Virus record (IMG/VR): IMGVR_UViG_3300036860_000446
Location: 1-52,444 of that record
Source of the DNA: a virus
Direction: 5' to 3' (one strand)
Length of the DNA stretch: 52,444 bases
The translations under genes and the position numbers were made by a program. The notes beneath the pieces were generated by a model. That model saw only the letters and a list, made by a program, of their open reading frames with translations. It had not been told where the DNA came from and made no database searches. Positions 10,985 to 39,162 of this stretch are shown here, one piece after another (position 1 is the first letter of the stretch; the number at the start of each line of letters is the position of its first letter).

Positions 10985-10987
10985 AGG

Positions 10988-11017
10988 ACTCTACCTCAAG
11001 TATACCCATCATGTCAA
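10988..11017 (-). promoter_or_regulatory. Possible promoter for the portal-side small genes
   Basis: On the minus strand, TTGACA (11012-11017) and TAGAGT (10988-10993) are 18 bases apart. The sequence AGAAAGGACTTGAC leading into the -35 is shared with the promoter at 15.1 kb. The ATG at 10984 is only 4 bases after this -10, so either the message is leaderless, or the internal TATACT is the working -10, or this promoter serves the genes further on. Confidence 0.4.
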
Positions 11018-11035
11018 GTCCTTTCTTTAGGTGAG

Positions 11036-11053
11036 CCCCAGGTACGTCCCAAC
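11036..11053 (-). repeat. Copy 1 of the GTTGGGACGTACC intergenic motif
   Basis: Minus-strand GTTGGGACGTACCTGGGG begins within the terminase TAG stop codon and lies 18 bases upstream of the -35 box at 11012-11017. Copies 2 to 4 are at 15138, 16712 (plus orientation) and 22645. Position upstream of -35 in two copies suggests a regulator-binding site. Confidence 0.65.
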
Positions 11054-12627: not shown

Positions 12628-12922
12628 CTTCCTCCGAAATGGCCTGGAGGATACGTAGCGTCTTATCATCCAGGGTGATCTTCTTCGCCACCGCGATCTT
12701 CGTTACTGGTGTGAAGCCGCTACGGTCCAACCATTCCTTGATCATCCACGCCTTGACGCGCTCCTGGGTTGGTCCCGTGATCAGGTTCAGCTGCTCCCGC
12801 AGCGCCAGCGGGACTCCCTTTTGCAGGAGCTCATTGATATCCTCGGTCGACATCTGCGGCAGTTTCTCGGTTCCGATCAGCTCGAGGAGCTCCTGAAGCA
12901 GATTGTCGTTAGGTTTCGACAT
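12407..12922 (-). CDS. Terminase small subunit-like protein
   Basis: 171 residues from the ATG at 12922. The N-terminal 100 residues are helical (LLQELLELIGTEKLPQMS, and WMIKEWLDRSGFTPVTKI, a helix-turn-helix-like pair), followed by an acidic linker (EEDDTTIDTD) and a Pro/Gly/Gln-rich disordered tail. Position directly before the large terminase and this layout fit a DNA-recognising small subunit. The tail is overprinted by the start of the large subunit. The longer frame beginning at a TTG at 12997 lies inside the previous gene and is not supported. Confidence 0.55.
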   Translation of the reverse strand: MSKPNDNLLQELLELIGTEKLPQMSTEDINELLQKGVPLALREQLNLITGPTQERVKAWMIKEWLDRSGFTPVTKIAVAKKITLDDKTLRILQAISEEDDTTIDTDFEVCEKARPTVEVGSGPDPAQPEVEMQEVALLSEQGGPGVSGPDPRLPSQDVQVRPGPDDPSKAG

Positions 12923-13061
12923 CCAACGCTCCCTCGTCGATGAGGATCTGGACTGCGGCGCGGGCAGCAGAGAGCGCCATCCTATCATCAACATCAACGG
13001 TGTTCTCCAGGATCGTATCCTGGACCGTTTGGATCAGGTCGACCAGATCCGCATAGGTCAT
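12909..13061 (-). CDS. 50-residue acidic helical protein
   Basis: An ATG at 13061 with GGAGGGGA nearby opens a 51-codon ORF. The product is acidic and helical (MTYADLVDLIQTVQ, then DRMALSAARAAVQ). It ends 14 bases inside the small terminase gene, so it is coupled to packaging gene expression. No family recognised. Confidence 0.5.
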   Translation of the reverse strand: MTYADLVDLIQTVQDTILENTVDVDDRMALSAARAAVQILIDEGALDVET

Positions 13062-13073
13062 AGTCCCCTCCAC

Positions 13074-14969
13074 CTACTGGCGTTCATCACAGCCGATGTC
13101 CCACGCGCTTCCTTGCTGCGCCTCACAATCATTATAGAACAAATCCACCCCGTTGCAAATGTCCGCTGTTCTCCCGGATGGCATCCCGGTAGCCGTACCA
13201 GCATTGCGGGCATTGCTGACCGCCTTGAGGTGGAAATCTCCCGTCGAGATGTTGACGAATCCCGGGGCTGCGCACTTGTTGTTGTCGTTGCCTGTACCAT
13301 CGTTGTCTACATCAGCGCTTGTTATCGTCTGCGCGCACGTCTTGTTAGCTCCATTGAACGCAATCAGAGTTCCGCTCGTAGCGGACTTAACGATGTTATT
13401 CTGGAACACTCCAGACGAAGTCCAAGCCACTAGTTGTTGACTTCCATCTGAATAAAGTATATTGTTTCGGAATATATTCCCGGTGACAACTGAACCGGCT
13501 CCAAAGCGTTGTTCAATAGCCTTGATGCCGTCGGGAACATAGAACGTGTTATTGTAAATCTTATTGTCCCTGACCTTGCAGAGAGAACTAGCAGCTGTCT
13601 CCACAATGAGCCCGCTATCTCCAGGATTATCGCAGAGATTGTTGTAGATTTGTATGTTGTCGCCGAGCGATCCCAATCCAGAGTCGAGTGTATGGTCGTA
13701 TTTGATGCACCCAGCATTTACATCCCTGAAGACATTATTCCGAACGATCCAGCCCCAGGATTTCTCTATGACGATTCCCTGGCCAGGGTGCGCCCCTGGA
13801 TTGTTGGTCCGCTCGATCAAGTTCCCGCTGACAACGCTTCCGGTACTGTCTCCGTGCAGGACGCCACCGTTGACCTCATAGGCAAGGATCATGCCCGAAG
13901 AAGTTCCGCTGCTACCCGGGCCCATGACCGTCGGATCGCCTAAGTCGTGGATCCAGTTATCGGTGATCGTAACTACCAGCGGTGTTCCTGTAGGTCCAGC
14001 GGTCGTGTGGATGCCCTCGCTCCCGGTATAGGCGATCTCGCTGTTCTTGATCGTGACAGGCGTTGCCTGACCGCCGTTCAATACCACCCAGCCAACCCCA
14101 TAGTCGCTCCCAGAATTGAACTTATCAGCATTATATAGAATCGTCGCGCCGTCGATGACGATGTTCGTTGCCGAACTCAACAACTGAATCGCTGCTCTGC
14201 GATGGCAGCGAAACGTCACACCCCTGATCGTGATCCAGGAACTCGTGCCCAGTTCAAAGCCAACGCCGTTGTTGTTTGTGAAGACGTAAGGGCGCGAGTT
14301 GGATGCGCCACCTGGAGCGTCGGCTCCAGTTCCCCAATAGACGAATATATTCGTGCCCGTTGTCTGCGCGCTGTAGCTCTCCCACTGGGCGGTGATGCCA
14401 GCGAGCCCGATCTCGCGCCGTGTCATCTGGCCATCCGGCCGCTGCGCCCCAATCGCCAAATCGGAGAAGCTGGACCCGGCAACGTACCAGACGACGTTGC
14501 AGGCTATGGAGCTCGGTAGTCCGTTACATGGTGCGTTGCAGGAGCCAGCCGTACCGGAGCATTGGGTCCAGGCGCCAAGATCCTCGGTCCCGTCGATATA
14601 GACAGGCTCCCCAGATCCGCGCGTTCCAGTGAAGCCGTTGTTCTGGATGATGATGGGGTGGCTACTCGCGCCGTTCTTGCCCGTGATCGAGAACCTGTCG
14701 CCGAAATAGCGGCCTTCGGTATTGCCGGGACAGTTGTCGTGAGTGGAGTGGACTCCGCGAATGTTGAGCACGTCATCCTGAGCAGAGAGCAGCCCGATAC
14801 CGTCTGCCAGTAGCTTCTTCGGGTTGTTTGTCGTCGGGCTGGAGAGGCAGGAGGCGGAACTCCCGTTGCCAGCAGTCGGACAGGTCGCATCGACGTAGTA
14901 GGTCGCTGCCCACACCTGTCCACCCAGCACCAACCCCAGCAACACCCCAACCAGCCGCAGTCGCTTCAT
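13074..14969 (-). CDS. Secreted right-handed beta-helix protein
   Basis: 631 residues from the ATG at 14969 (a longer frame begins at 14990). A signal peptide is evident: KRLRLVGVLLGLVLGG, then VWA-A before TYYVDA. The body is a right-handed parallel beta-helix of Asn/Gly-rich turns (VIDGATILYNADKF, VSGNLIERTNNPG). The C-terminus SAWDIGCDERQ matches the DIGxxE ending of many exported beta-helix repeat proteins. Cys pairs occur in the first third. It is the first gene of the minus-strand late operon, behind its own promoter and structured leader. Glycan binding or cleavage at the cell surface is plausible; activity is not shown. Confidence 0.65.
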   Translation of the reverse strand: MKRLRLVGVLLGLVLGGQVWAATYYVDATCPTAGNGSSASCLSSPTTNNPKKLLADGIGLLSAQDDVLNIRGVHSTHDNCPGNTEGRYFGDRFSITGKNGASSHPIIIQNNGFTGTRGSGEPVYIDGTEDLGAWTQCSGTAGSCNAPCNGLPSSIACNVVWYVAGSSFSDLAIGAQRPDGQMTRREIGLAGITAQWESYSAQTTGTNIFVYWGTGADAPGGASNSRPYVFTNNNGVGFELGTSSWITIRGVTFRCHRRAAIQLLSSATNIVIDGATILYNADKFNSGSDYGVGWVVLNGGQATPVTIKNSEIAYTGSEGIHTTAGPTGTPLVVTITDNWIHDLGDPTVMGPGSSGTSSGMILAYEVNGGVLHGDSTGSVVSGNLIERTNNPGAHPGQGIVIEKSWGWIVRNNVFRDVNAGCIKYDHTLDSGLGSLGDNIQIYNNLCDNPGDSGLIVETAASSLCKVRDNKIYNNTFYVPDGIKAIEQRFGAGSVVTGNIFRNNILYSDGSQQLVAWTSSGVFQNNIVKSATSGTLIAFNGANKTCAQTITSADVDNDGTGNDNNKCAAPGFVNISTGDFHLKAVSNARNAGTATGMPSGRTADICNGVDLFYNDCEAQQGSAWDIGCDERQ

Positions 14970-15007
14970 TTCTACCCCGCCAGCCTCCAAACGTCAACCC
15001 CCGAAGA

Positions 15008-15064
15008 CCACCGACCCAGCCGGAGGCTTGCCGAGCCGGTGGCGCTACCCCACGACGGAGTAGC
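15008..15064 (-). promoter_or_regulatory. Structured 5' leader of the beta-helix gene
   Basis: In the roughly 105-base leader two hairpins lie in series on the minus strand: an 8-bp stem (arms 15044-15051 and 15057-15064, one G-T pair) and a longer one closed by CCACCG/CGGTGG (15008-15013 and 15037-15042) with an inner AGCC/GGCT stem. This could be an mRNA stabiliser or a riboswitch-like control element. It does not clearly match a riboswitch that I know. Confidence 0.4.
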
Positions 15065-15080
15065 TTCGGGGAGGGATCTA

Positions 15081-15110
15081 TTTATACCACGAATCCGCCT
15101 CCTGAGTCAA
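15081..15110 (-). promoter_or_regulatory. Promoter for the minus-strand late operon
   Basis: On the minus strand, TTGACT (15105-15110) and TATAAA (15081-15086) are separated by 18 bases. A transcript would start near 15074 and read the beta-helix, terminase and downstream genes. The motif GTTGGGACGTACC lies 28 bases upstream of the -35, as it also lies close upstream at 11.03 kb. Confidence 0.6.
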
Positions 15111-15137
15111 GTCCTTTCTATGCAGAGAATCGGTACA

Positions 15138-15156
15138 CCCCAGGTACGTCCCAACC
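15138..15156 (-). repeat. Copy 2 of the GTTGGGACGTACC motif
   Basis: Minus-strand GGTTGGGACGTACCTGGGG. It shares with copy 1 not only these bases but also the downstream AGAAAGGACTTGAC that forms the -35 region, although the distance between them differs (18 versus 27 bases). Confidence 0.65.
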
Positions 15157-15462
15157 CTGCCCCCATTTTAGCCTTCCTCGCAGCTCGCCGATCCTCCCCA
15201 TGCGCCTGGCTATCGTGGCTAAGACCTAGTCCCATTCATTTCTGATCAGTAAATAGTCGGCGGTCTTGGTTCTAGCCGCGCGCGCCTATGGGAGGGTGGT
15301 CGGCTTGAACCCCCTTGTGGTGGTACTGTGAAGGGAGCGCAGTAGGCCGCTCCCGGAGCGTGTTTTTGCTCTCTGACAATTCAGGGCACCGATTCCCTGC
15401 GGGTCTCCCCAAACGGGCGATCTCGCGAGGGGGAGATCCGAAACATCGGCAGGAGAAGGCCA
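15157..15462. other. Intergenic divergence region
   Basis: No gene is visible. It separates minus-strand late genes from plus-strand early genes. Contents are a GGGAGCG/CGCTCCC hairpin with an 8-base loop (15333-15354), followed after about 10 bases by GTTTTT, which could be an attenuator for plus-strand transcription, and a GATCTC/GAGATC pair just before the first early gene. I see no convincing plus-strand promoter. Confidence 0.4.
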
Positions 15463-15780
15463 ATGTTGAGGATCAGGATCAAGGCAGGGATCGGAACGTA
15501 CACTCCGGCAGGAGGGTCGGAAACGGAGATCCTACGGCGCGAAGTGCATGTGCTCGACGCCAGTGGGAACACGGTCGCAAAACTCAATGTCCCGACGGCC
15601 GCAAGGCTCGCGCAAGCTGCAGCGGCGGACAAGGACGGCGAGTCGCTCGTGGATTTCGGCGCCAGACTCGTGCAAGCCGTGGCGGAAAACGACGCCAAAC
15701 TGGCCGAAATGACGGGTCAGGGGAAGACGGCGCGCAAGTCAAAGACGACGATCCGGCCACTGTTCGAGACGGAGGGGTAG
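15463..15780 (+). CDS. First early-region protein, unknown function
   Basis: 105 residues, with a good AGGAGAAGG ribosome site. The N-terminal half is beta-type (MLRIRIKAGIGTYTPAGG, then REVHVLDASGNTVAKL). The C-terminal half is helical (ARLAQAAAADKDGESLVD, then ARLVQAVAENDAKLAE) and ends in a basic tail. No family recognised. Confidence 0.5.
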   Translation: MLRIRIKAGIGTYTPAGGSETEILRREVHVLDASGNTVAKLNVPTAARLAQAAAADKDGESLVDFGARLVQAVAENDAKLAEMTGQGKTARKSKTTIRPLFETEG

Positions 15781-21531: not shown

Positions 21532-22641
21532 GTGAGTTGCTGTCCGGTTTGCGATCTTCGCGGGCACGAAGTCGTGAAGGGGGTGGACAGACTGAGGGGG
21601 TTCGAGATCGAGCTTAGCAGCAGCGCGATCGAGGCGCTCTCGGAAGTGGAACGGTGCAAGAAACACCTGAGCCGGTGCGATGGAAGGTGTCAGGTGGAGG
21701 CCAGCAATGAGCCCTGCGATTGCAAGGTGTGTCTCAAGGAACAGGTGGCGCTGGCGCTGAAGGAAAAGCCGGAATGCCCGGGGCATCCGTGCTGGGATCC
21801 GGGGAAGGAGAAGTCGGGGATCTTCCTGGCCGGGGTCATGATGAAGAGCGGGCTCGATATGGAAGGGTCTTTCATCGACTGGAGAAGGACGCCGAGGGAT
21901 AACAGGTATTGGGATCTGAAAACGGATTCGAGCTGCGGCTTCGAAATCGCGACGCCGCCCTGGACGGGGAAGATGGTAGGGGAGGAGCTTGGAAAGGGGC
22001 TGGCGCCGCTGGTCACGTTGGAGGCGGCACATCCGGGGTGGAGGTTACAGGACGACAGGTGTGGGCTGCATTGCACCATCGATGTCAGCGATCAGGGGCT
22101 GAGGGGGGTGAAGCAGATTCTCTTGATGGCGGCCCGCCACCAGAGCGCCCTGTTGGGGACGCAGCCGAAGTACAGGTGGAACAATCACAACTGTCGGAAG
22201 TTCGGAGAGGCGTGGCTCGGGACCGTTAACACGCCGGGGTTCAAGCGACGTGTTACCTACATTCAGTCAGCGGGGCAGCTCAGGGAAATAGTCCCGGAGA
22301 AGTACTTCCTGGTCAATACGAAGAAGTTTCAGGACGGGGAGGGACTGCTCGAGTTCAGGTTCGGCGGGGCCGTTATCGCTGCTGAGAAAATCGAGGCGTA
22401 CGGGGTGCTGATCGAGTGTCTGGTGCAGGCGGCGATCGAACATCCGGTGACCGTTGAAACCAGCGACAGGAAGAAGCGGCTGTACAAGGAGGTCATCGAG
22501 CCGTTTATCAAGGACCAGAGGGTGCAGAAGGCGTGGGAGGGGGCATTGTGGCCGGCCCTTGCGGACGTAAGTTTGCCGTCGGATCCGAAGGCGCCGCCGA
22601 AACTGGCCATAAAGACGCGGCTGAGGGAGCTGGGACTATGA
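21532..22641 (+). CDS. Amidoligase (glutamine-synthetase-like COOH-NH2 ligase) with Cys-rich N-terminus
   Basis: 369 residues from a GTG with GGAGG upstream; the longer TTG start has no such site. The first 80 residues carry CCPVC, several Cys/His and CDCKVC, a probable zinc module. The rest matches the amidoligase fold: GFEIATPP (136-143) and CGLHCTIDVSD (177-187) correspond to the GxExxSPP and CGxHvHxD active-site signatures, followed by an RWNNHNCRKF region. Family members use ATP to join a carboxylate to an amine, often on peptides. With the amidotransferase next door, the likely role is amidation of cell-wall peptides or a small metabolite. Confidence 0.7.
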   Translation: MSCCPVCDLRGHEVVKGVDRLRGFEIELSSSAIEALSEVERCKKHLSRCDGRCQVEASNEPCDCKVCLKEQVALALKEKPECPGHPCWDPGKEKSGIFLAGVMMKSGLDMEGSFIDWRRTPRDNRYWDLKTDSSCGFEIATPPWTGKMVGEELGKGLAPLVTLEAAHPGWRLQDDRCGLHCTIDVSDQGLRGVKQILLMAARHQSALLGTQPKYRWNNHNCRKFGEAWLGTVNTPGFKRRVTYIQSAGQLREIVPEKYFLVNTKKFQDGEGLLEFRFGGAVIAAEKIEAYGVLIECLVQAAIEHPVTVETSDRKKRLYKEVIEPFIKDQRVQKAWEGALWPALADVSLPSDPKAPPKLAIKTRLRELGL

Positions 22642-22644
22642 GGA

Positions 22645-22662
22645 CCCAGGTACGTCCCAACC
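22645..22662 (-). repeat. Copy 4 of the GTTGGGACGTACC motif
   Basis: Minus-strand GGTTGGGACGTACCTGGG lies four bases after the amidoligase stop. The same intergenic gap holds a GGACCC/GGGTCC hairpin and a minus-strand promoter-like sequence, so this gap may be a control point inside the amidation cluster. Confidence 0.6.
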
Positions 22663-22752
22663 AGTTTGCTGCTAACGCGGGTCGTGCTGAGGCGAGGGTT
22701 GAAGAGGACCCGGTAATTTGGGTCCCCTCCGACTAGCCTGGGTTGTGAGAGG

Positions 22753-22781
22753 ACTCTAACACAAACTGATCGATAGGTCAA
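22753..22781 (-). promoter_or_regulatory. Promoter-like sequence facing the amidoligase (antisense)
   Basis: On the minus strand, TTGACC (22776-22781) and TAGAGT (22753-22758) are 17 bases apart. The spacer shares ATCA-x2-TTGTG with the capsid promoter at 7963-7991. It points into the amidoligase gene in antisense, where no minus-strand gene is visible. An antisense transcript or a relic of rearrangement is possible. Confidence 0.35.
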
Positions 22782-22790
22782 GGGGGTCAA

Positions 22791-23558
22791 ATGTGCAGGT
22801 TGGCATACATACCGCCGGGGGTTGACCCGGAGCAGAAGGAAGTTATCAACCTACTGGAGTTCCTCGCCACCATGCAGGGGAAAGATGGAGTCGGGGTTGG
22901 TGGCTGGACCCCGAAGAACGAGGGAAGGCTGGCCAAGGGGGTCGACATGCAACCGGCGGAGGCCATCGACAAGTTGAAGGATGCCGATGCGCTTCGGAAG
23001 GGGGTCATGTTCCATTGTCGGGCGGCGACCTCGGGCGGTAAGTTGGATGGGCTGTGTCAGCCATTCATCTTCCAGAACCAGATGACGGTTCACAACGGCC
23101 ACTGGACAGACTGGAAGGATGTCCTGTGGCCGCTGATCATCAGCAAGGCGATCCGGCCGGGGGACGGTCCGATCAATGACAGCGCAGCGGCGGCAGCGGT
23201 CGCGGGGGCAACAGAAGGGTGGGGGCTCAGTTGGATGGACAACGGGGTCTTTATCACCTGGAACCACAAGCAGAGGTGGCCCATGCTCATCCTCAACAGG
23301 GGAGACTTCTGCTATAGCGCGCTCCCGGCGAAGATGGGCGGGGGGGTCATCTACGCGAGCCAGTTCCCCTATACGTGGCCGGTCAAGGTCATGGAATTCC
23401 ACAACGACTCGAAGGCGATCCTGACGCCGGCGGGGCCGTTCATGCTGCTTGGGAACGAGCCGTTCCAGAAGCGGGCCTACTACTCGTACGGAGGGGAATA
23501 CTCGGGTGGACGGTGGAAGGGGCACGGGTACCCTCTCGGGGAGGGGTGCGGCGTATGA
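22791..23558 (+). CDS. Class II glutamine amidotransferase-like (Ntn hydrolase)
   Basis: 255 residues. MCRLAYIPPG places Cys2 as the N-terminal nucleophile after Met removal, the hallmark of class II glutamine amidotransferases. CRAATSGGKLDGLCQPF and TVHNGHWTDW (NG-H/N region that forms the oxyanion/Gln pocket) also fit. Such domains release ammonia from glutamine for a partner ligase. In phiEco32-type phage clusters they accompany amidoligases, as here with the genes at 21532 and 28124. Start is ATG. Its stop overlaps the next gene. Confidence 0.75.
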   Translation: MCRLAYIPPGVDPEQKEVINLLEFLATMQGKDGVGVGGWTPKNEGRLAKGVDMQPAEAIDKLKDADALRKGVMFHCRAATSGGKLDGLCQPFIFQNQMTVHNGHWTDWKDVLWPLIISKAIRPGDGPINDSAAAAAVAGATEGWGLSWMDNGVFITWNHKQRWPMLILNRGDFCYSALPAKMGGGVIYASQFPYTWPVKVMEFHNDSKAILTPAGPFMLLGNEPFQKRAYYSYGGEYSGGRWKGHGYPLGEGCGV

Positions 23559-24034
23559 AACACAGCATCATGATTTCACTGGCGAGTGGGCAATTACGCC
23601 CCAGGAGGGTGTATAATGGGGAATATGTTGCCAGCAGGTGTGGGAGGTTCCTCAGAAGGATCGGGGGAGGGAAGGGAACGGGGGCGGTGGCGGCGCCTAA
23701 CGGGATCGTTTTATGTTCGGATCCGAAGTTGCACGAGTTGGGGGGCAGAGAGGGCCTGCAAATCCTGTTGGTCAGGGACTTCGCGCCGGGAACGCTCAGG
23801 TTGCTGCTGGATCCGAAGAGGTATCCGAGATCCATTTTGGAGGCGGTCTCGTGGATGCTGAAAGAAGGGCCTGGGCTGCGGGGGTCTGGGATGCGAGGCT
23901 TAAGGTCCGAGCCACAAACACAGGTGTCCGTGCGTGGATTGGGGGATTTAGCATTCGAGCCGATGGAGACTTCGGCTCCACTACCACGGATGGCTCGTAT
24001 ATTCAGGCAGCCTGGGAACGAGCCATCGGAATAA
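23555..24034 (+). CDS. Protein of unknown function in the amidation cluster
   Basis: 159 residues from an ATG that overlaps the amidotransferase stop. The first 100 residues look structured (PRRVYNGEYVASRCGRFLRR, PNGIVLCSDPKLHELGG, RLLLDPKRYPRSILEAVSW). The last 60 are low in regular structure and overlap the next gene in another frame. No family recognised. Its coupling suggests a role with the amidotransferase. Confidence 0.5.
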   Translation: MKHSIMISLASGQLRPRRVYNGEYVASRCGRFLRRIGGGKGTGAVAAPNGIVLCSDPKLHELGGREGLQILLVRDFAPGTLRLLLDPKRYPRSILEAVSWMLKEGPGLRGSGMRGLRSEPQTQVSVRGLGDLAFEPMETSAPLPRMARIFRQPGNEPSE

Positions 24035-24198
24035 AGTATAGTCACAGAAACCTGATCCACATCATACCGCTCATCGAGGAATATTCGAGGCGGTCTGAAA
24101 CTAAAGCGCTTCTTGTTTACTTGAGGGCGCGGTGGAGGAGAAGTGGGGAGACACAGGCGGTTCGCGGGCTTCTTAGGGAGATCAAACGACATGGCTGA
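23851..24198 (+). CDS. Overlapping ORF with weak LAGLIDADG-like helix
   Basis: 115 residues from a GTG with GGAGGCGG a few bases upstream. The N-terminus (AERRAWAAGVWDARLKVRAT) has the WAAGxWD shape of the LAGLIDADG helix, then beta segments (GGFSIRADGDFG) and a helical end (IIPLIEEYSRRSETKALLV). It may be a very short homing-endonuclease relative, or unrelated. The first half overlaps the previous gene; the longer open frame upstream reads as a shadow of it. Confidence 0.45.
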   Translation: MDAERRAWAAGVWDARLKVRATNTGVRAWIGGFSIRADGDFGSTTTDGSYIQAAWERAIGIKYSHRNLIHIIPLIEEYSRRSETKALLVYLRARWRRSGETQAVRGLLREIKRHG

Positions 24199-24565
24199 GA
24201 AAGCAAACTGTTGGTGCTGTGCTGTGACCATAGAGGTTGACGACAAGTGCGCCAAACCGTTCATCTGTGAGGCGTGCATGAAAGGGGAGCACAGGGCGAT
24301 CGAGAGTCCGGCGGACATGTTCATGGTGTCGACGGATTGCAAGGCGGACCCGTGCAAGGCGTACCGGTCGCTGAGGGTCAGTAGGCAGTCAGCCCAGAAG
24401 CTCTTCAACAACCGGGATCTCATCAAGTGCAAGGCGTGTGGGAAAGCGAAGACGGAACTCAAGATCGTCAAGTCGTGGATCGTTGATGATGACAAGGCGG
24501 AGGAAATCCTACCGACGAAGGAGTGGCGGGGCAAGACGCCGGAGGAGGCGGCAGCAGCATCATGA
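24191..24565 (+). CDS. Cys-rich zinc-binding protein
   Basis: 124 residues from the ATG at 24191, overlapping the previous stop. Three Cys clusters are visible: NCWCCAV, FICEACMKGEH and IKCKACGKAK, suggesting at least two zinc sites. It lies directly before the nuclease gene and overlaps it. Possibly a recombination or regulatory accessory; not recognised. Confidence 0.5.
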   Translation: MAEKANCWCCAVTIEVDDKCAKPFICEACMKGEHRAIESPADMFMVSTDCKADPCKAYRSLRVSRQSAQKLFNNRDLIKCKACGKAKTELKIVKSWIVDDDKAEEILPTKEWRGKTPEEAAAAS

Positions 24566-25470
24566 TACAGAACCAGTCCAGGCTCTCTGAGCTGGAGAAG
24601 TGCCCGAGGCGATACGCCTGGAGGTGGCTCTATAACCTCGCGACCAAGAAAAGCTCGCTGACGGCGGATCGAGGGACCTGGCTTCATGCCGGACTTGCGG
24701 GGTGGTATAAGTCATTTGATGCAGGGGTCGCGCTCCGGGCCTACGATGAGGCGTTCAAGCTCAGCGATCAGGATAAAAACAGCGGGGAGGTGACCGAAAC
24801 TTACACCACTTGGAGGATCAGGTTGGAAGAATACTGCCGGAGGAACCGGAACCCGATATTCAGGGTTCTCATGGCTCCGGAGCAGGAGCTTGTCCTGCCG
24901 GTTGGCAGGCATAAGTTGTTCACGAGGATCGATCTCATAGTCCAGATGAAGGATACGAACGAAATCTGGGCCATGGATCACAAATCGGCGGAACGAACGG
25001 GACCGAGTTGGTACTCAAAGTATTACGTGGACAAGCAGGGCTCCAGCTACATCTTGGCTGTTGCCAATGAGTTAGGGGTCCAGCCGGCTGGGTGGATTAT
25101 CAACGTCGTGAAGTCCACCAAGGCGGACTGGTTTGAAAGACAGGCGTTCACGAGGCAGAAAGACCAGCTGGAAAGTTTCGTCAGGCAGACAGAAAAACAG
25201 CTTGACAGGCTGGAGAAAGCTGTGGTAGAATTCCCTGGTGAAGAGGACCCAGGGGTCGCTGCCTACCTAGACGAGCACTTTCCTCAGTACACGCATGAAT
25301 GTCACACGTGGGGGACGTGCCCGTTTTTATCGATTTGCCAGGCTGGGATCAAGGCAGCGAGGTCAAGCTTCAAGGTGAGGGAACGGGACTACGTTGATGA
25401 TCAGCGGGATTCTGCTGGTCTTGGTGGCTCCAACAGTAGTAGTTCACTTTCTACGCCCGAAGAGGCGTAA
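24562..25470 (+). CDS. Cas4/RecB-like PD-(D/E)xK nuclease with Fe-S cysteines
   Basis: 302 residues from the ATG at 24562. LSELEKCPRRYAWRW supplies the first Fe-S cysteine (14). The nuclease core has GTWLH (38-42), RIDLI (Asp 124), DHKSA (139-143, the D-x-K) and a following GSSYILA helix with Q/Y. The C-terminus HECHTWGTCPFLSICQAG supplies the remaining cysteines. This is the Cas4/AddB-type exonuclease architecture used by phages for recombination-dependent replication. It is next to the Sak4-like gene. Confidence 0.75.
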   Translation: MIQNQSRLSELEKCPRRYAWRWLYNLATKKSSLTADRGTWLHAGLAGWYKSFDAGVALRAYDEAFKLSDQDKNSGEVTETYTTWRIRLEEYCRRNRNPIFRVLMAPEQELVLPVGRHKLFTRIDLIVQMKDTNEIWAMDHKSAERTGPSWYSKYYVDKQGSSYILAVANELGVQPAGWIINVVKSTKADWFERQAFTRQKDQLESFVRQTEKQLDRLEKAVVEFPGEEDPGVAAYLDEHFPQYTHECHTWGTCPFLSICQAGIKAARSSFKVRERDYVDDQRDSAGLGGSNSSSSLSTPEEA

Positions 25471-25489
25471 ACCTGGGGGTTCAGAATGA
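25397..25489 (+). CDS. 30-residue single-span membrane protein overlapping the nuclease
   Basis: An ATG inside the end of the nuclease gene opens a 31-codon frame that ends with an ATGA overlap onto the next gene. MISGILLVLVAPTVVVHFL is hydrophobic, followed by a basic tail (RPKRRKPGG). This is the same design as the mini membrane ORFs at 16.9-17.8 kb. There is only a weak ribosome site. Confidence 0.4.
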   Translation: MISGILLVLVAPTVVVHFLRPKRRKPGGSE

Positions 25490-25806
25490 GCAAGTTTCAG
25501 CCGGTTCCGCGAGCGATGTACCCGATGATCAACAATCTCACGGGAGGGAAGGTGCCGGTCAGGGTTATCTCCCGCACGGTGCGGCAGGCGTCGCATCACA
25601 ATGGCCGGAAGTCAACAGCGATCGGGACGCAGCTGTATCTGACAGAGGGGATCAGCGAGAGGCTCGGGAAGGCGGTCAAGGCGCTTGGAACGACGAAGCA
25701 GGCGGCGGTCGCGGGGATCGTCCATGCAATGTTGCCGAAGCTGGAGCAGCTGGCGTCGGCAGTCGAGAAGCCGATCAAGAAGCTCTGCCCGACCTGCAAG
25801 CAGTAG
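25486..25806 (+). CDS. 106-residue recombination-cassette accessory protein
   Basis: Contains PVRVISRTVRQASHHNGRKS, then LYLTEGISERLGKAVKALGT, a helical segment, and ends LCPTCKQ with a single CxxC. It is basic and lies between nuclease and Sak4-like ATPase. DNA binding is plausible; no family recognised. Confidence 0.5.
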   Translation: MSKFQPVPRAMYPMINNLTGGKVPVRVISRTVRQASHHNGRKSTAIGTQLYLTEGISERLGKAVKALGTTKQAAVAGIVHAMLPKLEQLASAVEKPIKKLCPTCKQ

Positions 25807-25821
25807 CGGAAAGGAGAAACG

Positions 25822-26586
25822 TTGAGTTTAGCAATTCGCCCCCTCCAGGATAGTCCGAGTCCGCATCTGAGTGTGCTACTGGTATCTCCTGGAGGGTATG
25901 GGAAAACGACCTCTCTTATCACGGCGCCGAAGCCCCTCCTTATAGGGGACGTGGATGGGGGTTTTGAGTCGCTGTTCAAGGAGGGTCTAATAAGGCCGGA
26001 GCAGAGGGAAAAGATCGACCTGGCTCCGATCAGGAGTTACGGGGATGCGCTCGAGTTTGCAACCTCGGCGTGGAAGGGGTATGCCACGATCGGGTTCGAC
26101 AGTTTCAGCTGGTTCATGAGCAATATCATCAAGCCGGAATGTTTGGCGATGAGCAACCATGAACTGATGGAACAGAGGGATTGGGGCCTTTACTTTGAAA
26201 GAGGGCTCTCGATCGTCAGGAAGTTGCACGAGTTGGCGATGTCGGAAAACGGGTGTCATGTCATTGTGACGAGTCACGAGGCGGATAAGGGAGGGAATGA
26301 GGGAGAAATTGGGAAGATCGGACCGGCGGTTAGTGGGCAACTGTTTGATATCCTGCCGGGGATATTCAACTTCGTTTTCTTCCTTCGTGTCATTCATGCC
26401 GGGATAGACCGGTCGGGGAGGGTACCGAAGCCGATTTTAGAGAGAAAGTTTCTGACGGAAGCTGACGGGAGGACACCAGCGAAGGCGAGGCGGACCCTGT
26501 TGCCGATGGAGAAGCCGGATTTCTCCGCGATCTGGGAGAAGGTAAAACCGCAGGCAACGCTCGAGCGGGTGTTCAAGGAGGGGTAA
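25822..26586 (+). CDS. Sak4-like RecA-fold ATPase (AAA_24 type)
   Basis: 254 residues from a TTG start with AAAGGAG upstream. Walker A is SPGGYGKTT (22-30) and Walker B is TIGFDSFS (89-96); a VIVTSHEAD segment follows the central helices. This is the short RecA-like ATPase family (phage nucleotide-binding protein, Sak4) that promotes single-strand annealing. Partners here are a Cas4-like nuclease before it and a DUF669-like protein after it, the usual phage combination. Confidence 0.75.
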   Translation: MSLAIRPLQDSPSPHLSVLLVSPGGYGKTTSLITAPKPLLIGDVDGGFESLFKEGLIRPEQREKIDLAPIRSYGDALEFATSAWKGYATIGFDSFSWFMSNIIKPECLAMSNHELMEQRDWGLYFERGLSIVRKLHELAMSENGCHVIVTSHEADKGGNEGEIGKIGPAVSGQLFDILPGIFNFVFFLRVIHAGIDRSGRVPKPILERKFLTEADGRTPAKARRTLLPMEKPDFSAIWEKVKPQATLERVFKEG

Positions 26587-26587
26587 C

Positions 26588-26851
26588 ATGGGGTGTGGAT
26601 GTCAGGGTGAGAAGGAAGATGACGTTTCGGCTGTTGCAACAAGACAGGCACTCCTGGAGATCATCGAGGAGTGGATAGCAAGGTCAGACGACGGCAAGAA
26701 GTGGCTCTCCGAGATGGCTGCCAAAGTCGGGGTACCGCTACAGATTGCTTTACCGCTGAAAGGTTCAACAGAGAGCGCCGCTGGCGCAGAGGAGAATCAT
26801 GAAGATCGCCGTGAACTTGAAGGACGTAGCTGCTGCGGACCTGGTTCCTGA
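26588..26851 (+). CDS. 87-residue protein with terminal cysteine pairs
   Basis: MGCGCQGEKEDDV opens the protein, and GRSCCGPGS closes it. The centre is helical and acidic (ALLEIIEEWIARSDDGKKWL). Cysteine pairs at both ends suggest metal binding, disulfides or dimerisation. It overlaps the next gene by 53 bases. No family recognised. Confidence 0.45.
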   Translation: MGCGCQGEKEDDVSAVATRQALLEIIEEWIARSDDGKKWLSEMAAKVGVPLQIALPLKGSTESAAGAEENHEDRRELEGRSCCGPGS

Positions 26852-27275
26852 GGGGTCGCGAAGGGCCAGGATTGCGCGGGCGGAGCTGTACCCGAAGGAT
26901 GCAAATATCGACCCCACGAATTGCGAGATCGTGGGAAAGGTCGATAAGAACGGAAACCAGGCGTATGCGTGGATCAGGGTCGGGTTTGTTCTCGAAGAGC
27001 ACCCAACGAACTATGGGGTGAGCCCGTCCGGGAAGACGATCAGTTACGCTGGTCGATGGGTGTGGTCGAATTTCTTCCTGTATCCGGATCGGATGGTGCC
27101 GGTTTATGAGTTGTTTCAGAACTCAGGAGCGACGTTCGACAAGGATGGGTTTGATGTGGCGGAGCTCGTTGGGAAGACGGTTGATGCGGTTGTCGCGCAC
27201 AAGCCGAGACAGGATGACCCGGAAACGAAGGAGGCATACGTGAAGAGGGTCAGGATTGCGGTTGATAGGGGGTAA
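26799..27275 (+). CDS. DUF669-like protein, probable single-strand DNA-binding partner
   Basis: 158 residues. The pattern LKDVAAADLVPEGSRRARIA, AWIRVGFVLEEH, WSNFFLYPDRMVPVYELFQN and ELVGKTVDAVVAHKP resembles the DUF669 group of phage proteins that follow Sak4-type ATPases and are thought to act as OB-fold-like DNA-binding factors. Position supports it. Its stop begins the structured non-coding region at 27.28 kb. Confidence 0.55.
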   Translation: MKIAVNLKDVAAADLVPEGSRRARIARAELYPKDANIDPTNCEIVGKVDKNGNQAYAWIRVGFVLEEHPTNYGVSPSGKTISYAGRWVWSNFFLYPDRMVPVYELFQNSGATFDKDGFDVAELVGKTVDAVVAHKPRQDDPETKEAYVKRVRIAVDRG

Positions 27276-27725
27276 CTGAAGAGGTCGCTAAGGGCTCTGA
27301 AGGTTAGCGCCACCTGATCAGGTGGCGACTATGGGACGGAGCCTGCCCTTCCCCGGCTCACCCCCGCCGGGCGACGAACGGGGTAGTCACGGAAGCCGAA
27401 AACCCGGGTTGAGCCTTTGGCCTCCGGCTGTGCTGCCAGCGCGTTATCCCGTGCCTGGCGTGACGAGAGACGGGGTGGAGATAGACAGCACCACACGGAC
27501 AAGGCTTTGGCCGGTAAGCATGGTGGCTATCGAACAGTCGGTCCCAGTAGCAGAGACGCCGACGACCAGCAAAATCTGGGTGGGTAGCGAGTGGTGATGG
27601 TGCTGTCCTCAAGGCGTCGCTTGGCGCTCGCTTTTTCAAACCAACCGCGAAAACCGGCTGGTAGCTAACTGTGACCGTAAAGCCCCGCTGCGGTGCGACA
27701 AAATGCGGGGCATTGCTCTCATATA
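27276..27725 (+). ncRNA. Candidate structured RNA, about 430 bases
   Basis: No convincing gene lies here, although short frames are open. Helices include a 20-base perfect palindrome (27308-27327), an 8-bp stem with one mismatch and a 7-base CGAAAAC loop (27640-27647 with 27655-27662), and a 7-bp GCCCCGC/GCGGGGC stem (27682-27711). Runs such as GGCGACGAACGGGG and GAAAACCCGGG look like loop-rich structured RNA rather than coding sequence. It does not match group I/II intron, RNase P or tmRNA signatures that I know. Confidence 0.45.
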
Positions 27726-27739
27726 AAGGAGGTGCTAAG

Positions 27740-27976
27740 GTGGGGAAGATCGTGGTGGTGGCGGAGAGGTTGGAAAGAAACGAAAGGCCACATCAGCCAG
27801 GGAGCTGGATGCTATTGACCCCGAGGGGGAGGGGAAGGAGCAGGCGGCAGGAGATTTGCGGGCAAGGGATCTTCAACTTGATGGGGATCAAGAAGCCGGG
27901 CACGTATACGATTGAGTGTCGGGTCAAGAGGGGACGCTTGTCGTCATCACCCAGATCGTCATCGGAAACTACCTGA
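27740..27976 (+). CDS. 78-residue basic protein
   Basis: GTG start with AAGGAGGTG 6 bases upstream; the upstream in-frame extension lies in the structured region and is rejected. GKIVVVAERLERNERPHQPG leads to a strand (SWMLLTPRGRGRSRRQEI) and a Ser-rich end. The C-terminus overlaps a small membrane ORF. Function unknown. Confidence 0.45.
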   Translation: MGKIVVVAERLERNERPHQPGSWMLLTPRGRGRSRRQEICGQGIFNLMGIKKPGTYTIECRVKRGRLSSSPRSSSETT

Positions 27977-28047
27977 CGGCCTGGTTGGTGTTCGCGGCGT
28001 CGCTGGCATGGTGGTGTACAGGTCGGTGTAGCATAGATAAGACCTAG
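27916..28047 (+). CDS. 43-residue membrane mini-protein
   Basis: GTG start inside the preceding gene. MSGQEGTLVVITQIVIGNYL continues to TAWLVFAASLAWWC, giving one or two short membrane segments. It has no strong ribosome site. Included because it repeats the arrangement of the other mini membrane ORFs. Confidence 0.35.
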   Translation: MSGQEGTLVVITQIVIGNYLTAWLVFAASLAWWCTGRCSIDKT

Positions 28048-28123
28048 CCGTACTTTTTGACCCCCCACCCCCGGTGGGCGGGGAACGGGTTGAGGTTAAC
28101 GATCGTCAAAATGGGGAACTGCG

Positions 28124-29197
28124 ATGTACCTGGGGCACGACGCGGAACTCGCGGTTTTGAATCAGAACGGGGAGGGGGTCTCGGCGCATGCGTTCTATCC
28201 GCCGAAGGAAAGTCCGCAGTACACGGGGTACTATTCGGAACAGCAGCAGTGGCATCGGGACTCGTTCTTCAGGGATGGAACCAGTCTCGAACTGAACACC
28301 CCGGGCGGGATCAGTTGCTTCGCTGGGCTGATGAGCGTAACGATCCTCACGATGCAGCAGGCGGAAAAGAGGCTGCCGGAGGGGTACAAGTTGGAACCGG
28401 TCAGCAGCTATGAGGTCGTGGATGACCTCAGCAGGGCGCCGGAGGATGTGGTCAGGACGGGGTGCGGGCCAGTTAGGAACGCGTATGAGGGGTGGGAGGA
28501 GAAGGGGGCGTGGGTGGATCCGTTAGCGAAGAAGAGATTTGCGGGGGGTCATATCCACGTGTCGGCGATGAGAGGGGATCCGCTTACCACCATGCTCGCG
28601 GATGAGGAGAGGCGGAAGAGGACGTGCTCGTTCGTTGTCCGGTATTTGGATCTGTTTTGTGCGGTCCCGTGGGTCTATCTGGGGGTAGAGGGGGTCAAGG
28701 GGATCGAACGGAGAACGGTGTTCGGGAAGGCGGGGGAGTACAGGTTCCAGAGGTACAAGGTTCCAGCTGGGCACGAACCGGGGATTGGAATCGAGTACAG
28801 GGTGCTGGGGCCGGAGTGGCTCAAGGATATCGGGCTGGCGGCGCTCGCTTTCAACCTGGTCAGGGGGGTCACCAGGGTGGCAACAAACAGGTTGGTGGAG
28901 CGGGAGAGGAAAAAGGCGAAGCTGGTCAGGTGGTCGTCGATGGTTCTAGAAGCGAGAGAAGCAATCAACAAGGGGGATACAAAGGAAATTTTCGAATCGC
29001 CGACGTATCAAAGGAGGCTGGAAAGGGTGCTCAGGCAGGTGCATTCGTATGATCCGAGCAGGTTTCAGATCCGGCACCTGACGTTCATCAGGAACAACGC
29101 GGAAAGGTTGTTCGCAAGGGTGCCGGGGATCTCTAAGTGGGTTGGGTCAACGTCGAACAACTGGCCGGAATGCTTAGAGAGATGGGGGTTTGTATGA
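28124..29197 (+). CDS. PhiEco32-like COOH-NH2 ligase (amidoligase type 2)
   Basis: 357 residues. The signatures of the phiEco32-like amidoligase group are all present: GHDAELAVLNQNGE (4-17), RDGTSLELNTPGG (50-62), GGHIHVSA (141-148) and GIGIEYRVLGPEWL (220-233). These acidic and His residues bind ATP-Mg and substrate in the glutamine-synthetase-like fold. In phages such enzymes are proposed to add amines to peptides, perhaps in the host cell wall. Together with the amidoligase at 21532 and amidotransferase at 22791 it forms a split amidation cluster. It is the last AGG-rich gene of the left part. Confidence 0.75.
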   Translation: MYLGHDAELAVLNQNGEGVSAHAFYPPKESPQYTGYYSEQQQWHRDSFFRDGTSLELNTPGGISCFAGLMSVTILTMQQAEKRLPEGYKLEPVSSYEVVDDLSRAPEDVVRTGCGPVRNAYEGWEEKGAWVDPLAKKRFAGGHIHVSAMRGDPLTTMLADEERRKRTCSFVVRYLDLFCAVPWVYLGVEGVKGIERRTVFGKAGEYRFQRYKVPAGHEPGIGIEYRVLGPEWLKDIGLAALAFNLVRGVTRVATNRLVERERKKAKLVRWSSMVLEAREAINKGDTKEIFESPTYQRRLERVLRQVHSYDPSRFQIRHLTFIRNNAERLFARVPGISKWVGSTSNNWPECLERWGFV

Positions 29198-33849: not shown

Positions 33850-34073
33850 GCGCCCCCATCAAGACCTGCCGCTGCCCGGGCATTATTAAGGCCTGCCGTC
33901 CGCGTCTTCGTAGGTGTCGTTGTCCTCAATTCCTCCCGGGGCTCATCGTGTCGCATGTTCTGTGCGTACGGTGTAAGCCCATCAAGGAAATGCTGCTCAA
34001 CGCGCTCCTGTACGGTTCGGGCGTCACCGCAATCGAGCGAGAGCCGCCCCGCCCGCGTCTCGTCTCGAAGTGA
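33846..34073 (+). CDS. 75-residue basic Cys-rich protein
   Basis: GTG start overlapping the previous TGA. APIKTCRCPGIIKACRPRLR and RCRCPQFL give CxC pairs, and VLCVRCKPIKEML adds CxxC. It is positively charged, so nucleic-acid binding is plausible. It ends four bases inside the large terminase gene. Confidence 0.45.
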   Translation: MSAPIKTCRCPGIIKACRPRLRRCRCPQFLPGLIVSHVLCVRCKPIKEMLLNALLYGSGVTAIEREPPRPRLVSK

Positions 34074-35863
34074 CCCCCGGCTCCGACCTCCTGCTGGAAC
34101 TGGAACGCGACCTGTCGGTGTGCACATTTGCCGAATTGCAGGAGCGCTGGGGTCAGGGCGACCGGAACCTCGTCATCGCGGATCTGGCCCGCAAGGCGCG
34201 GCGCGAGGTCTCCTGGGAACAGGCCGTCCCCGCCGACCACAATCCCATCTACTACACGGCGGAGCGGGCGTACTTTTCCAACAAGAAGGCGAAGGGGAAC
34301 CCGCGGTTTTTGTATGCTCCCTATCACCGCGATCGATTCTGTAAGATGGCGCTTGAGCACATCCTGTCGCCGCCGTCGATAGTCGCGGCTCTCTTGATCC
34401 TTGCGCTCCGGTATTCCTACAAGAGCACCTTCACCCTTGGCGTCATCCCGATGTGGTTCGCGCACCGGTTGAAGCGTCTGCTCGGTCACGATGCCCGGAT
34501 CGTGTTGCGGCACCATAAGGAGGAAATGGCGAGCGGCCATCTCGTCCGCCTGAAGGATAAATACCGTTTCGATCCGTGGACCCGCCGGGTGTGGCACGAC
34601 GCCTGTCCGGCCGAAGGGAGAAGGGACTTCGGCCACTCGACGGCGTTTTCACTCCCATGGATCGGCCGCGGGGAGCAGACCGAAGTCACGTTCCGGGCGA
34701 TTGGCGTGAGCGCGTGCGATACGGGCGCTCACGGCGATCTAGACTGCGGCGACGACATCGTGACGGAAGAGCACCTGAAGTCAAAGTTGGTGCGCCGCGA
34801 TTCCAGGGAACGTTACGAGGCCCGCACCTATCAGTCGGATGACGAAACTCGCGAGATGAACACCGGCACCCCGTACCATCCGGAGGACACCTACGCCTGG
34901 ATGGAGAAGGCCCTGGACGACGACGGGACGCCGATCTACCGCGTGGTCAAGATCCCGGCCATCGCCAAAGAGTGCCCTGATTGCAAACACCCGACCGTAG
35001 ATGATAAGGCGGGCGAGCCGAACCACCTGCGTGCCGGAAAGTGTACGGAGTGCGGCTGCGAATCGACCGCCGCGCTCACGCACCCGTTCAAGTGCTCGTG
35101 GGATTTCCTGAATCGGCGCCGGAAGCAGGAGATGGGGCGCTCGCACAACGATTCCATGTGGCGGAAGCAGTACCAGATCCAGCTCCGCGCGGAATCCGAC
35201 ATGGTGGGCGACTCGTCATGGTTGCGCGAGGCGACGCTGGACGACATCCCCGAGAACGCTTGGCCGGTCCTCCCGGTCGATCCGGCCTGGAAGGGGACGG
35301 CGAACGCCGGGGATGGCGACGCCGCCGCCGGCCAGATGTGGTTCATGGCCCGCCGTGCCGGCGTCATCCTCCGTTATCTGGTGGACGGCTTCCACTCGCG
35401 CCTGCTATCGAGCAACGAGGGCACCGAGGAGATGTTTCGGCTGATGCAGAAATGGAACTGCCGGGCGACGGCTCCAGAGGAGCACGGCGGGCAGGAATTC
35501 CGGCAGAAGATCCGTGACCACGCGACCGCGCTGGGCTACACGGTCACCCTGATCGACCTCAAGCTCAAGCAGACGGCGAAATGGCAGCGGATGTTGGCGT
35601 TCTTGCGGGAGGCCGAGAAGGGGACGGTGTTCTACGTGCCCGAGACCGTCCCGCCGGAGGTGTTGCAGGCCCTCCGCGACCAGATGGACGGCTATCACCC
35701 CGAAATGGACGACGACGACGCGCTGGACTGCGCCGGCTACTCCATGGACCCGAATATCGCCAAGAACTGGGCGCCCGCCTGGAACTCCGGCCAGCAGAAC
35801 GCCAGCGCATCCCGCCGTCCGCGTTCCCAGGAGGTGCCCAGAACACGTCACTGCTCTTTGTGA
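34070..35863 (+). CDS. terL: Terminase large subunit with zinc-ribbon insertion (region D)
   Basis: 597 residues, GTG start. The ATPase domain has a degenerate Walker A (RYSYKST, near residue 118) and a DLDCGDDI acidic segment. A zinc ribbon CPDC...CTECGC is inserted near residues 310-340. Nuclease residues are PVDPAWKG and the DDDDALDCAGY near the end. It is not closely similar to the left-hand large terminase. It packages DNA with the portal at 37282. The C-terminus is Ser/Arg-rich. Confidence 0.8.
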   Translation: MTPGSDLLLELERDLSVCTFAELQERWGQGDRNLVIADLARKARREVSWEQAVPADHNPIYYTAERAYFSNKKAKGNPRFLYAPYHRDRFCKMALEHILSPPSIVAALLILALRYSYKSTFTLGVIPMWFAHRLKRLLGHDARIVLRHHKEEMASGHLVRLKDKYRFDPWTRRVWHDACPAEGRRDFGHSTAFSLPWIGRGEQTEVTFRAIGVSACDTGAHGDLDCGDDIVTEEHLKSKLVRRDSRERYEARTYQSDDETREMNTGTPYHPEDTYAWMEKALDDDGTPIYRVVKIPAIAKECPDCKHPTVDDKAGEPNHLRAGKCTECGCESTAALTHPFKCSWDFLNRRRKQEMGRSHNDSMWRKQYQIQLRAESDMVGDSSWLREATLDDIPENAWPVLPVDPAWKGTANAGDGDAAAGQMWFMARRAGVILRYLVDGFHSRLLSSNEGTEEMFRLMQKWNCRATAPEEHGGQEFRQKIRDHATALGYTVTLIDLKLKQTAKWQRMLAFLREAEKGTVFYVPETVPPEVLQALRDQMDGYHPEMDDDDALDCAGYSMDPNIAKNWAPAWNSGQQNASASRRPRSQEVPRTRHCSL

Positions 35864-37281: not shown

Positions 37282-39162
37282 ATGGACCCACAATCCACGG
37301 CAACCGCGCCGGCTGTACGCGAAGGCAACGAGACGCAGCGGCAGGATGAAACCAGATTCGTCCTCGATTTCGTTGAACAGTCGGCACGCGCCCGCAACCC
37401 CTACATGCCAACGTGGGAAGAGATCCTCAACAACTATCTTGTCGTTCCTTATGGGGCGGACGATCGATCCTTCTACACGGCTTCGGTCGCAGGATCGGCC
37501 ACACATACCCTGCGCAGAGACCGCCGCGCCCGCCTGAAAGACCCGGAAACCCATCAGATCGTTGAGACCATCACATCGCAGGCGATCGATCTCCTGCTGG
37601 GACAGCGGGAATACATCGCCGCGATTCCGACTGCGACCGGCAGTTATGACCGCGCACGGCTGATCGGCAACGTGCTGATGGCGTTTTTCGAGCAGCCCGG
37701 GATCTGGACGACGCATTACCAGCTCTTCAAAGACGCCTTCCTGTTTGGGACCGCCATACTCGAGATCGGCTGGGAGAGCCGCGCCCGTTTGCAGTACGTC
37801 CGCGGCAGCAAGGAACCGGAGCGCGTCATCTACCGTGACCAGCCGCTTCATCGTCCCGTGGACATCTGGAAGTTTTATCCGGACCCATCGGGCACCTCTA
37901 TCCAGCGCGACATGATCGGTTGCGCCAAGGAGTTCGAGATCACCATCCAGGAGGCCCGCCGCCTCGCGGAACCGTCCGAAGACGGAGAGCCGGGCGTGTA
38001 CGACAAAGACGACGTGGAGGCCGCGATTCTCGCCTACCGCGAACGCTGTGAAGACCAGCGCAAGCGTTTCCCCAGCATCTCCCGCCAGATGCCAGAGCGG
38101 TTCCAGACGATGAAGGGCCTCGAATACTGGGGCGAATCGCCAGAGAAGGCGTCGGACGGCATGAGCAACCGCGTGATCACCCTGCTCAACGGCGTCCGCG
38201 TCCGCTCGCGCGGCAACGTCTATTGGGATGGCAACATTCCCTTCAAAGAGATTGTCGTCAACCCGATTGCCGGTCGATTCTGGGGCCTCTCCCCAGCCGA
38301 GGTCATCCGTTACCTTCAGGATTCCGCTGACAACATGCTGATGGTGCTGAACGACGCCGCCGATCTGGCCGTGCGCGGCCCGCTCCTGGTAGGCGCTGCG
38401 TTCGGCGGGAACCCCGATCAGCTCCGGGATCGCATGCTGGGCGACATCATCAATTGCACGGACCCAAAGATGGTGGGAACGGTTCCGGTCGATCTGAATG
38501 CGCTTCAGTTCGCGGCGCTTGACTACATGCGGCGCAAGCAGAGCATGCGCGAGGCCACCGGAGCGACCGATACGCCACAGGCCATCGGCGGTGGCGGCCA
38601 AGGCGGCGTTGACAAAACGGCGACTGAGGCGAGCCTGTTGTATCAGGCGGCCTCCCGGCGCGTCATCCAGATGGTCCTGCCGATCGAAAAAGACGCCTAT
38701 CCGTGGATCGGCAAAACAACGCATTCCAGGATGCGCCAGTTCATCGACGCCGACACGATCGTGGCGACCCTCGGCGGCCAGGCCCAGGAAATTCCCTTTG
38801 CAGAGATCGATAACGACGCCGACGTACGCTTCGTTGGATCGCGCCATGCCGGAAGCAAATTCCAGAAGGCGGTCCAGAACCGCCAGATGGCCGAAGTCCT
38901 GGGGAGCGACCGCGGCGAGCGTTTGGCCCTGCTCGCCCCCGAAGTGCTGGTCCGCTGGTTCCGTGACGGCATGGAGATTCCGGATGCTGAGGCCATTGTT
39001 GAGCGCATGACGGACCGCGCTTTGGCGCTCAAGCGGCTCTCGATCATGTCGCAGGGACAGGGCGGGCCACTCGGCTCCGTACCAACGGAGCAGTTCGAGG
39101 CCGACGAGACGTTCGGGACGCTCCCCGGCGAGGCGGAGCAGCAGGGCGAGGCCATTCAATGA
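37282..39162 (+). CDS. Portal protein (region D)
   Basis: 626 residues. Features are YMPTWEEILNNYLVVPYG, a HQIVETITSQAIDLLLG helix, FKDAFLFGTAILEIGWE, FPDPSG-like YPDPSGTSIQRDMIG, FWGLSPAEVIRYLQDSADNM and TGATDTPQAIGG with TATEASLLYQAA, the core helix-turn of phage portals. It forms the dodecamer at the packaging vertex. It is not recognisably close to the left-hand portal. Scaffold and capsid genes follow. Confidence 0.8.
   Translation: MDPQSTATAPAVREGNETQRQDETRFVLDFVEQSARARNPYMPTWEEILNNYLVVPYGADDRSFYTASVAGSATHTLRRDRRARLKDPETHQIVETITSQAIDLLLGQREYIAAIPTATGSYDRARLIGNVLMAFFEQPGIWTTHYQLFKDAFLFGTAILEIGWESRARLQYVRGSKEPERVIYRDQPLHRPVDIWKFYPDPSGTSIQRDMIGCAKEFEITIQEARRLAEPSEDGEPGVYDKDDVEAAILAYRERCEDQRKRFPSISRQMPERFQTMKGLEYWGESPEKASDGMSNRVITLLNGVRVRSRGNVYWDGNIPFKEIVVNPIAGRFWGLSPAEVIRYLQDSADNMLMVLNDAADLAVRGPLLVGAAFGGNPDQLRDRMLGDIINCTDPKMVGTVPVDLNALQFAALDYMRRKQSMREATGATDTPQAIGGGGQGGVDKTATEASLLYQAASRRVIQMVLPIEKDAYPWIGKTTHSRMRQFIDADTIVATLGGQAQEIPFAEIDNDADVRFVGSRHAGSKFQKAVQNRQMAEVLGSDRGERLALLAPEVLVRWFRDGMEIPDAEAIVERMTDRALALKRLSIMSQGQGGPLGSVPTEQFEADETFGTLPGEAEQQGEAIQ

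Follow-up and report, generated by a model that had tools for sequence, protein, structure and literature searches.

A viral record of 52,444 nucleotides (IMG/VR record IMGVR_UViG_3300036860_000446), referred to here in its whole length as the window, carries two ligases of different amidoligase subfamilies and a class II glutamine amidotransferase (GATase II). It raises the question of whether these genes are a version of the amidation sets known from other phages and, if so, what they might do during infection. In RIO-1-like podoviruses, two amidoligases, an ATP-grasp protein, a GGCT and a GATase have been described as one peptidoglycan-modification cassette (PMC5498523), and similar gene sets are found in LUZ24-like phages (PMC3890496; PMC11945000). 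The cell wall has been favoured, as a hypothesis, as the target of this cassette (PMC11945000; PMC5498523).

The features needed for the argument, in coordinates of the window, are the following:

8467-10404 and 11053-12669, minus strand: left packaging/head module, confirmed by an independent contig
21532..22641, plus strand: divergent Amidoligase_2 (carboxylate-amine ligase of predicted glutamine synthetase, GS, fold), 369 aa, GTG start
22791..23558, plus strand: predicted short stand-alone class II (N-terminal nucleophile) glutamine amidotransferase, 255 aa
23555..24034, plus strand: 159-aa ORF with no assigned function, overlapping the GATase stop (ATGA)
24571..25470 (ORF open from 24523), plus strand: PD-(D/E)XK exonuclease, between the two ligases (PF12705, E 4.5e-18; phrog_1218, E 1.2e-23)
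25822..26586, plus strand: Sak4-like ssDNA annealing protein, AAA_24 (phrog_124, E 4.5e-27; PF13479, E 2.1e-14)
28124..29197, plus strand: phiEco32-like COOH-NH2 ligase type 2 (predicted GS fold), 357 aa
34070-35863 and 37282-39162, plus strand: right packaging/head module

Identity of the three gene products

The GTG start of the amidoligase gene at 21532 is preceded by GGAGGA, and a longer alternative ORF from TTG 21454 is less likely. The protein begins with a GFEIE motif (residues 23-27, including E25 and E27), followed by a Cys-rich insert with 8 Cys within residues 42-87; an earlier sequence-only reading of this DNA had noticed a Cys-rich N-terminus. Downstream of the insert are W127, D132, S134, E138..TPP and CGLH180CT182, while the C-terminal motifs comprise R215, N218, C221, Y258, N262 and E274FR276. 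In an alignment of 37 sequences nine residues are invariant, and the protein keeps them all (E25, E27, D132, E138, H180, C221, N262, E274 and R276); T182 replaces the second His of the family HxH motif, a position that is His in at least 90% of the relatives. The amidoligase family phrog_2443 matches the gene with E 7.9e-7, tblastn matches it to amidoligases of Porphyromonas phages (E 5e-7), and a profile built from relatives places it first among the ORFs of the window (E 2.5e-4). Pfam PF12224 gives 15.7 bits, below its curated cut-off of 22, so that membership in that family would be a distant relationship, supported by phrog_2443 and the phage matches. With an AlphaFold model (pLDDT 70, pTM 0.69), the best match in a PDB fold search was YbdK (E 2.3e-3) and the remaining leading matches belonged to the GS superfamily. 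The same model had 43 matches with E < 1e-3 in BFVD (best E 4.1e-11); most of the named ones carry an amidoligase annotation, and the list includes Arthrobacter phage Salgado, Pseudomonas phage tf and Salinivibrio phage CW02. Profiles, invariant residues and model concur in predicting a very divergent Amidoligase_2. Among the IMG/VR sequences found, the closest match to it lies in a 230-kb viral contig (L091:9890-11137) and bears a Ser/Thr/Pro-rich tail.

In the amidotransferase gene at 22791, the key residues are Cys2, H75-C-R77, T80 and N102-G103; thus, the N-terminal nucleophile Cys after Met, R77 and the N-G oxyanion hole are all present. D130 is close to where Asp123 of the GlmS catalytic domain would fall, a correspondence that the alignment leaves ambiguous. 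A phage GATase II profile matches the gene with E 8e-12 (next window ORF, E 3.5), while TIGR03442 EgtC (E 4.3e-5, far under its curated cut-off) and a PurF model (E 0.029, also under cut-off) match it more weakly. A PDB sequence search with the protein found no credible homologue; a profile of its alignment matches GlmS, PurF and AsnB in the PDB. By family it is a class II glutamine amidotransferase, and glutaminase activity is predicted. The 159-aa ORF at 23555 is possibly translationally coupled to it, as the overlap of start and stop suggests; its codon usage fits the left early genes and it has no PHROG match. It is a candidate for an unrecognised partner of the amidoligase-GATase pair.

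The COOH-NH2 ligase at 28124 contains D6, E8, D51, E56, R138, GGH143IH145, R196, R207 and E224Y225R226. In an alignment of 51 sequences it keeps every one of the 26 invariant columns, including GGH143-I-H145 and E224-Y225-R226, and the catalytic columns of PF14395 (GxDPE, DG..LE.N, GGHIH, GxEYR) are recognisable, the Pro of DPE being Ala7. PHROG 3815 ("COOH.NH2 ligase") matches the gene with E 8.6e-16 and a ligase profile built from relatives with E 2.1e-26 (next window ORF, E 1.7), whereas PF14395 gives 24.6 bits, 0.4 bit below its curated cut-off of 25. The best match of the AlphaFold model (pLDDT 77.8, pTM 0.79) in a PDB fold search was glutamine synthetase (E 1.4e-4), and all nine matches with E < 1e-3 are glutamine synthetases or bifunctional glutathione synthetase, which points to a glutamine synthetase-like fold.

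PDB sequence searches with both ligase alignments gave no credible homologue, and single-protein scans of IMG/VR with each of the three proteins gave no close relatives. The matches of the three genes to their families are well beyond chance. The ORFs and motifs named in the sequence-only reading were found as described, and its assignment to two amidoligase subfamilies and a GATase II agrees with profiles, invariant residues and fold models. The residues it had singled out, namely the ExxxP glutamate (E138), GGHIH and Cys2, all fall in conserved active-site columns. In profile searches of the kind it proposed, PHROG matches both ligases and the built profiles match all three genes; PF12224, PF14395 and TIGR03442 stay below their cut-offs. 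The structure predictions it also proposed gave the glutamine synthetase/glutamate-cysteine ligase fold as the leading PDB matches of both ligases.

Composition of the record

Genes for the terminase large subunit, the portal and the head proteins each occur twice in the window, the two sets pointing in opposite directions. Independent support for the left part comes from the IMG/VR contig 3300036859_000367, which matches positions 1-15542 at 99.99% and extends 5.5 kb further left; the stretch 15.5-29.2 kb is represented in the window record only. A z-score tetranucleotide comparison did not assign 15.5-29 kb cleanly to the left phage, and codon usage, skew and synteny were used in its place. 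GC skew and codon usage shift just after the end of the COOH-NH2 ligase at 29197. This gene prefers the left early codon model by 108.6 log units, and all three amidation genes show matching early-gene codon usage; ORFs from 29399 on favour one or the other model only slightly, in most cases the right-hand one.

At its other end, the window (52121-52444) matches the other contig (L008:1742-2059) at 84% over 323 bases, in a gene from the tail region of the left phage, and its last ~100 bases are identical to that tail region. Both phages thus share this gene, and a window ending there is as expected when an assembly breaks at sequence common to two phages of one sample. The window thus appears to consist of two phages joined at about 29.3 kb, as an artefact or in reality; the join, near 29.2-29.4 kb, is probably a chimera or the contact of two adjoining phages. 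The three amidation genes all fall to the left of it, in a phage of which only about 34.7 kb is known.

Gene order and relatives

The order on the plus strand is amidoligase, GATase II and then COOH-NH2 ligase, the last lying 5.5 kb downstream of the amidoligase, past the exonuclease and Sak4 genes. Both ligases and the GATase II are present, but they do not form the contiguous cluster of a peptidoglycan-modification cassette. Component profiles run on the ORFs of the window, and Pfam run on the large sense ORFs of its left half, revealed no ATP-grasp, GATase I or GGCT, and the two conserved hypothetical cassette proteins were not found in the window either. The best ATP-grasp profile match in the window has E 0.38, in a phage that is incomplete beyond ~29.3 kb. 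The absence of ATP-grasp is provisional, since two phages seem to be joined in the window and the one with the amidation genes to be cut short; as the left phage is only partly known, the missing partners may lie in unseen DNA. Consequently, the claim that the ligases are split around recombination genes without an ATP-grasp describes the record correctly, while its extension to the phage is weakened by the join. A DNA-modification role of the GAT-QueC type was also considered and rejected, as no QueC or other deazaguanine gene was present among the window ORFs scanned.

The phiEco32/phiRIO-1/LUZ24/PA11-type cassette, for which Iyer et al. 2009 is reportedly a further source, is the closest point of comparison in content. 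Like these podoviruses (Zobellviridae and others), the window has a COOH-NH2 ligase type 2, an Amidoligase_2 and a class II GATase in an early region. By contrast, their cassette includes ATP-grasp, GATase I, GGCT and two conserved hypotheticals, is ordered GATase-ligase-hyp-amidoligase-ATP-grasp, has no exonuclease and Sak4 genes splitting its ligases, and encodes a GATase of about 400-480 aa, compared with 255 aa in the window.

To place the locus among its relatives, profiles for the seven usual cassette components were built from annotated Zobellviridae and Vibrio phages and used to scan all ORFs around 80 IMG/VR relatives of the COOH-NH2 ligase, 45 of which had 6 kb or more on either side and count here as fully flanked. 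In 42 of these 45 loci the ligase is accompanied by amidoligase, GATase II and ATP-grasp, and in the other three it stands alone; the combination seen in the window occurs in none of the 45. In 80% of the relatives the ligase and the amidoligase are ~0.5-0.8 kb apart, with a maximum of 3.6 kb. Nine relatives lie in bacterial or MAG contigs, most with the same cassette, the exceptions being short contigs. Two distinct ligases in one phage had been called unusual in the sequence-only reading; this is refuted by the 42 loci and by published cassettes with two amidoligases (PMC5498523; PMC3890496), which make two ligases the rule rather than the exception.

Eight relatives, including the three fully flanked ones, have no other cassette component in the flank examined, and a search across their whole contigs found no amidoligase. 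In a tree, the window ligase is not grouped with the lone ligases, but it sits on a very long branch (4.29 changes per column), because of which the tree cannot assign it to the lone or the cassette ligases. Another split layout is seen in two contigs with lone COOH-NH2 ligases (L078 and L081; G006 and G008), where a class II GATase lies far from the ligase and no amidoligase is detectable.

An amidoligase followed by a GATase II on the same strand, without a detected ATP-grasp, was also observed in Arthrobacter phage Waltz, in ctUh1700 and in the IMG/VR contigs L097 and L104, with 8-20 kb covered around each pair. In Waltz the pair is gp95-96, with a GGCT (gp94) beside it that has no counterpart found in the window; ctUh1700 has a Cys-rich amidoligase of 684 aa, and the L104 amidoligase has 22 Cys in its open frame, so that a Cys-rich N-terminal part is common to these two and the window. 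The four pairs have low sequence similarity to that of the window and, unlike it, no COOH-NH2 ligase was found in the regions covered. As such pairs exist elsewhere, the window looks like one of them with a separate COOH-NH2 ligase. Within the record, the departures from the known set are real: the components not found, the 5.5 kb split, the Cys-rich insert, HxT in place of HxH and the long ligase branch.

Proposed role and alternatives

We consider the chances about even that the window genes represent, in divergent and rearranged form, the set known from phages for peptide or cell-wall amidation. Enzymes of the GATase II family release NH3 from glutamine, and GS-fold ligases use ATP to form an acyl phosphate, which is attacked by NH3 or amines. 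By this chemistry, the GATase II would hydrolyse glutamine via Cys2 to give ammonia, and the amidoligase, with ATP and metal, would convert a carboxylate into an acyl phosphate and couple it to that ammonia, so that together they would amidate at the expense of glutamine. The COOH-NH2 ligase, lying apart, may then use ATP to form a further amide or peptide bond, either on the substrate of the pair or on a related one, most likely the stem peptide of host peptidoglycan, early in infection. An amidating pair with a second ligase is the simplest interpretation of the three genes. Both window ligases share the predicted fold of the YbdK/glutamine synthetase/glutamate-cysteine ligase superfamily, and their conserved E, H and R residues are probably of the kind that binds metal and ATP there, although identity is about 9-15% and the substrates of the superfamily differ.

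This reading is favoured by the family matches, invariant residues and GS/YbdK fold matches, by the 42 of 45 fully flanked relatives that keep both ligases with GATase II, by the recurrence of amidoligase-GATase pairs, by the early-gene codon usage common to the three genes and by the published cassette hypothesis (PMC5498523; PMC11945000; PMC3890496); against it stand the partners not found, the 5.5 kb gap and the loss of the second His in the amidoligase. Cell-wall amidation is a plausible role by analogy, and a part in the wall or in superinfection is the standing hypothesis of the literature, in which no biochemical evidence was found for any phage member of the cassette.

It is possible, if doubtful, that the COOH-NH2 ligase acts alone, independently of the pair, which would be compatible with any substrate of the latter. 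Its 5.5 kb distance from the pair and the eight lone relatives, without an amidoligase in their contigs, would fit, whereas the full cassette in 42 of 45 fully flanked loci, the codon usage shared with the pair and a tree that does not place it with lone ligases argue against it.

The enzymes are unlikely to modify a host or phage protein, by amidation or amino-acid addition, instead of the wall. Other phage peptide ligases (R2K ATP-grasp) have been proposed to modify host proteins (PMC4431377; PMC7824862), and the Cys-rich insert might be a zinc module that contacts protein or nucleic acid; however, there is no target gene beside the amidoligase-GATase pair, and published proposals for the cassette favour the wall (PMC11945000; PMC5498523).

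Also quite unlikely is a streamlined amidation system without ATP-grasp, where the two GS-fold ligases would share one short GATase II, a zinc-binding Cys-rich insert would dock the substrate and expression would accompany that of the recombination genes.

It seems improbable that the genes have an auxiliary function in how the infected cell metabolises nitrogen or small gamma-glutamyl compounds. Such a function was proposed for phage ZRK32, with GATase, amidoligase, glutathione synthase and GGCT, and the GS/YbdK-like fold would suit small-molecule ligation; nevertheless, in the available text of that report the claim is based on growth effects and annotation rather than enzyme assays (PMC10945688), and neither GGCT nor glutathione synthase was found in the window.

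Least probable of all is decay of the set into a remnant of a full cassette with reduced or lost activity, to which T182, the long ligase branch and the missing partners might point, but not the intact ORFs, the other invariant catalytic residues, all kept, or the coherent codon usage.

In the literature found, what the phage amidation cassette does biochemically is only a hypothesis. At ~625 residues in total, the amidoligase-GATase II pair is among the smaller versions and those easiest to purify and assay, which brings the question of the substrate within reach of experiment. The significance for the phage in question is modest, since both the families and their occurrence together were known before.

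Other features of the record

For the right-hand terminase large subunit (34070-35863, plus strand), tblastn against 50,697 phage records gave no match, and a pattern scan of IMG/VR revealed no relative. Among the right-hand structural genes, 41228-42034 (plus strand) has a weak glycosyltransferase-2-like match (PF13641, E 3e-4, under cut-off) and matches phrog_1574, of unknown function, with E 2.7e-13. Upstream of the left terminase, 13074-14990 (minus strand) encodes a right-handed beta-helix protein, possibly a tailspike or depolymerase.
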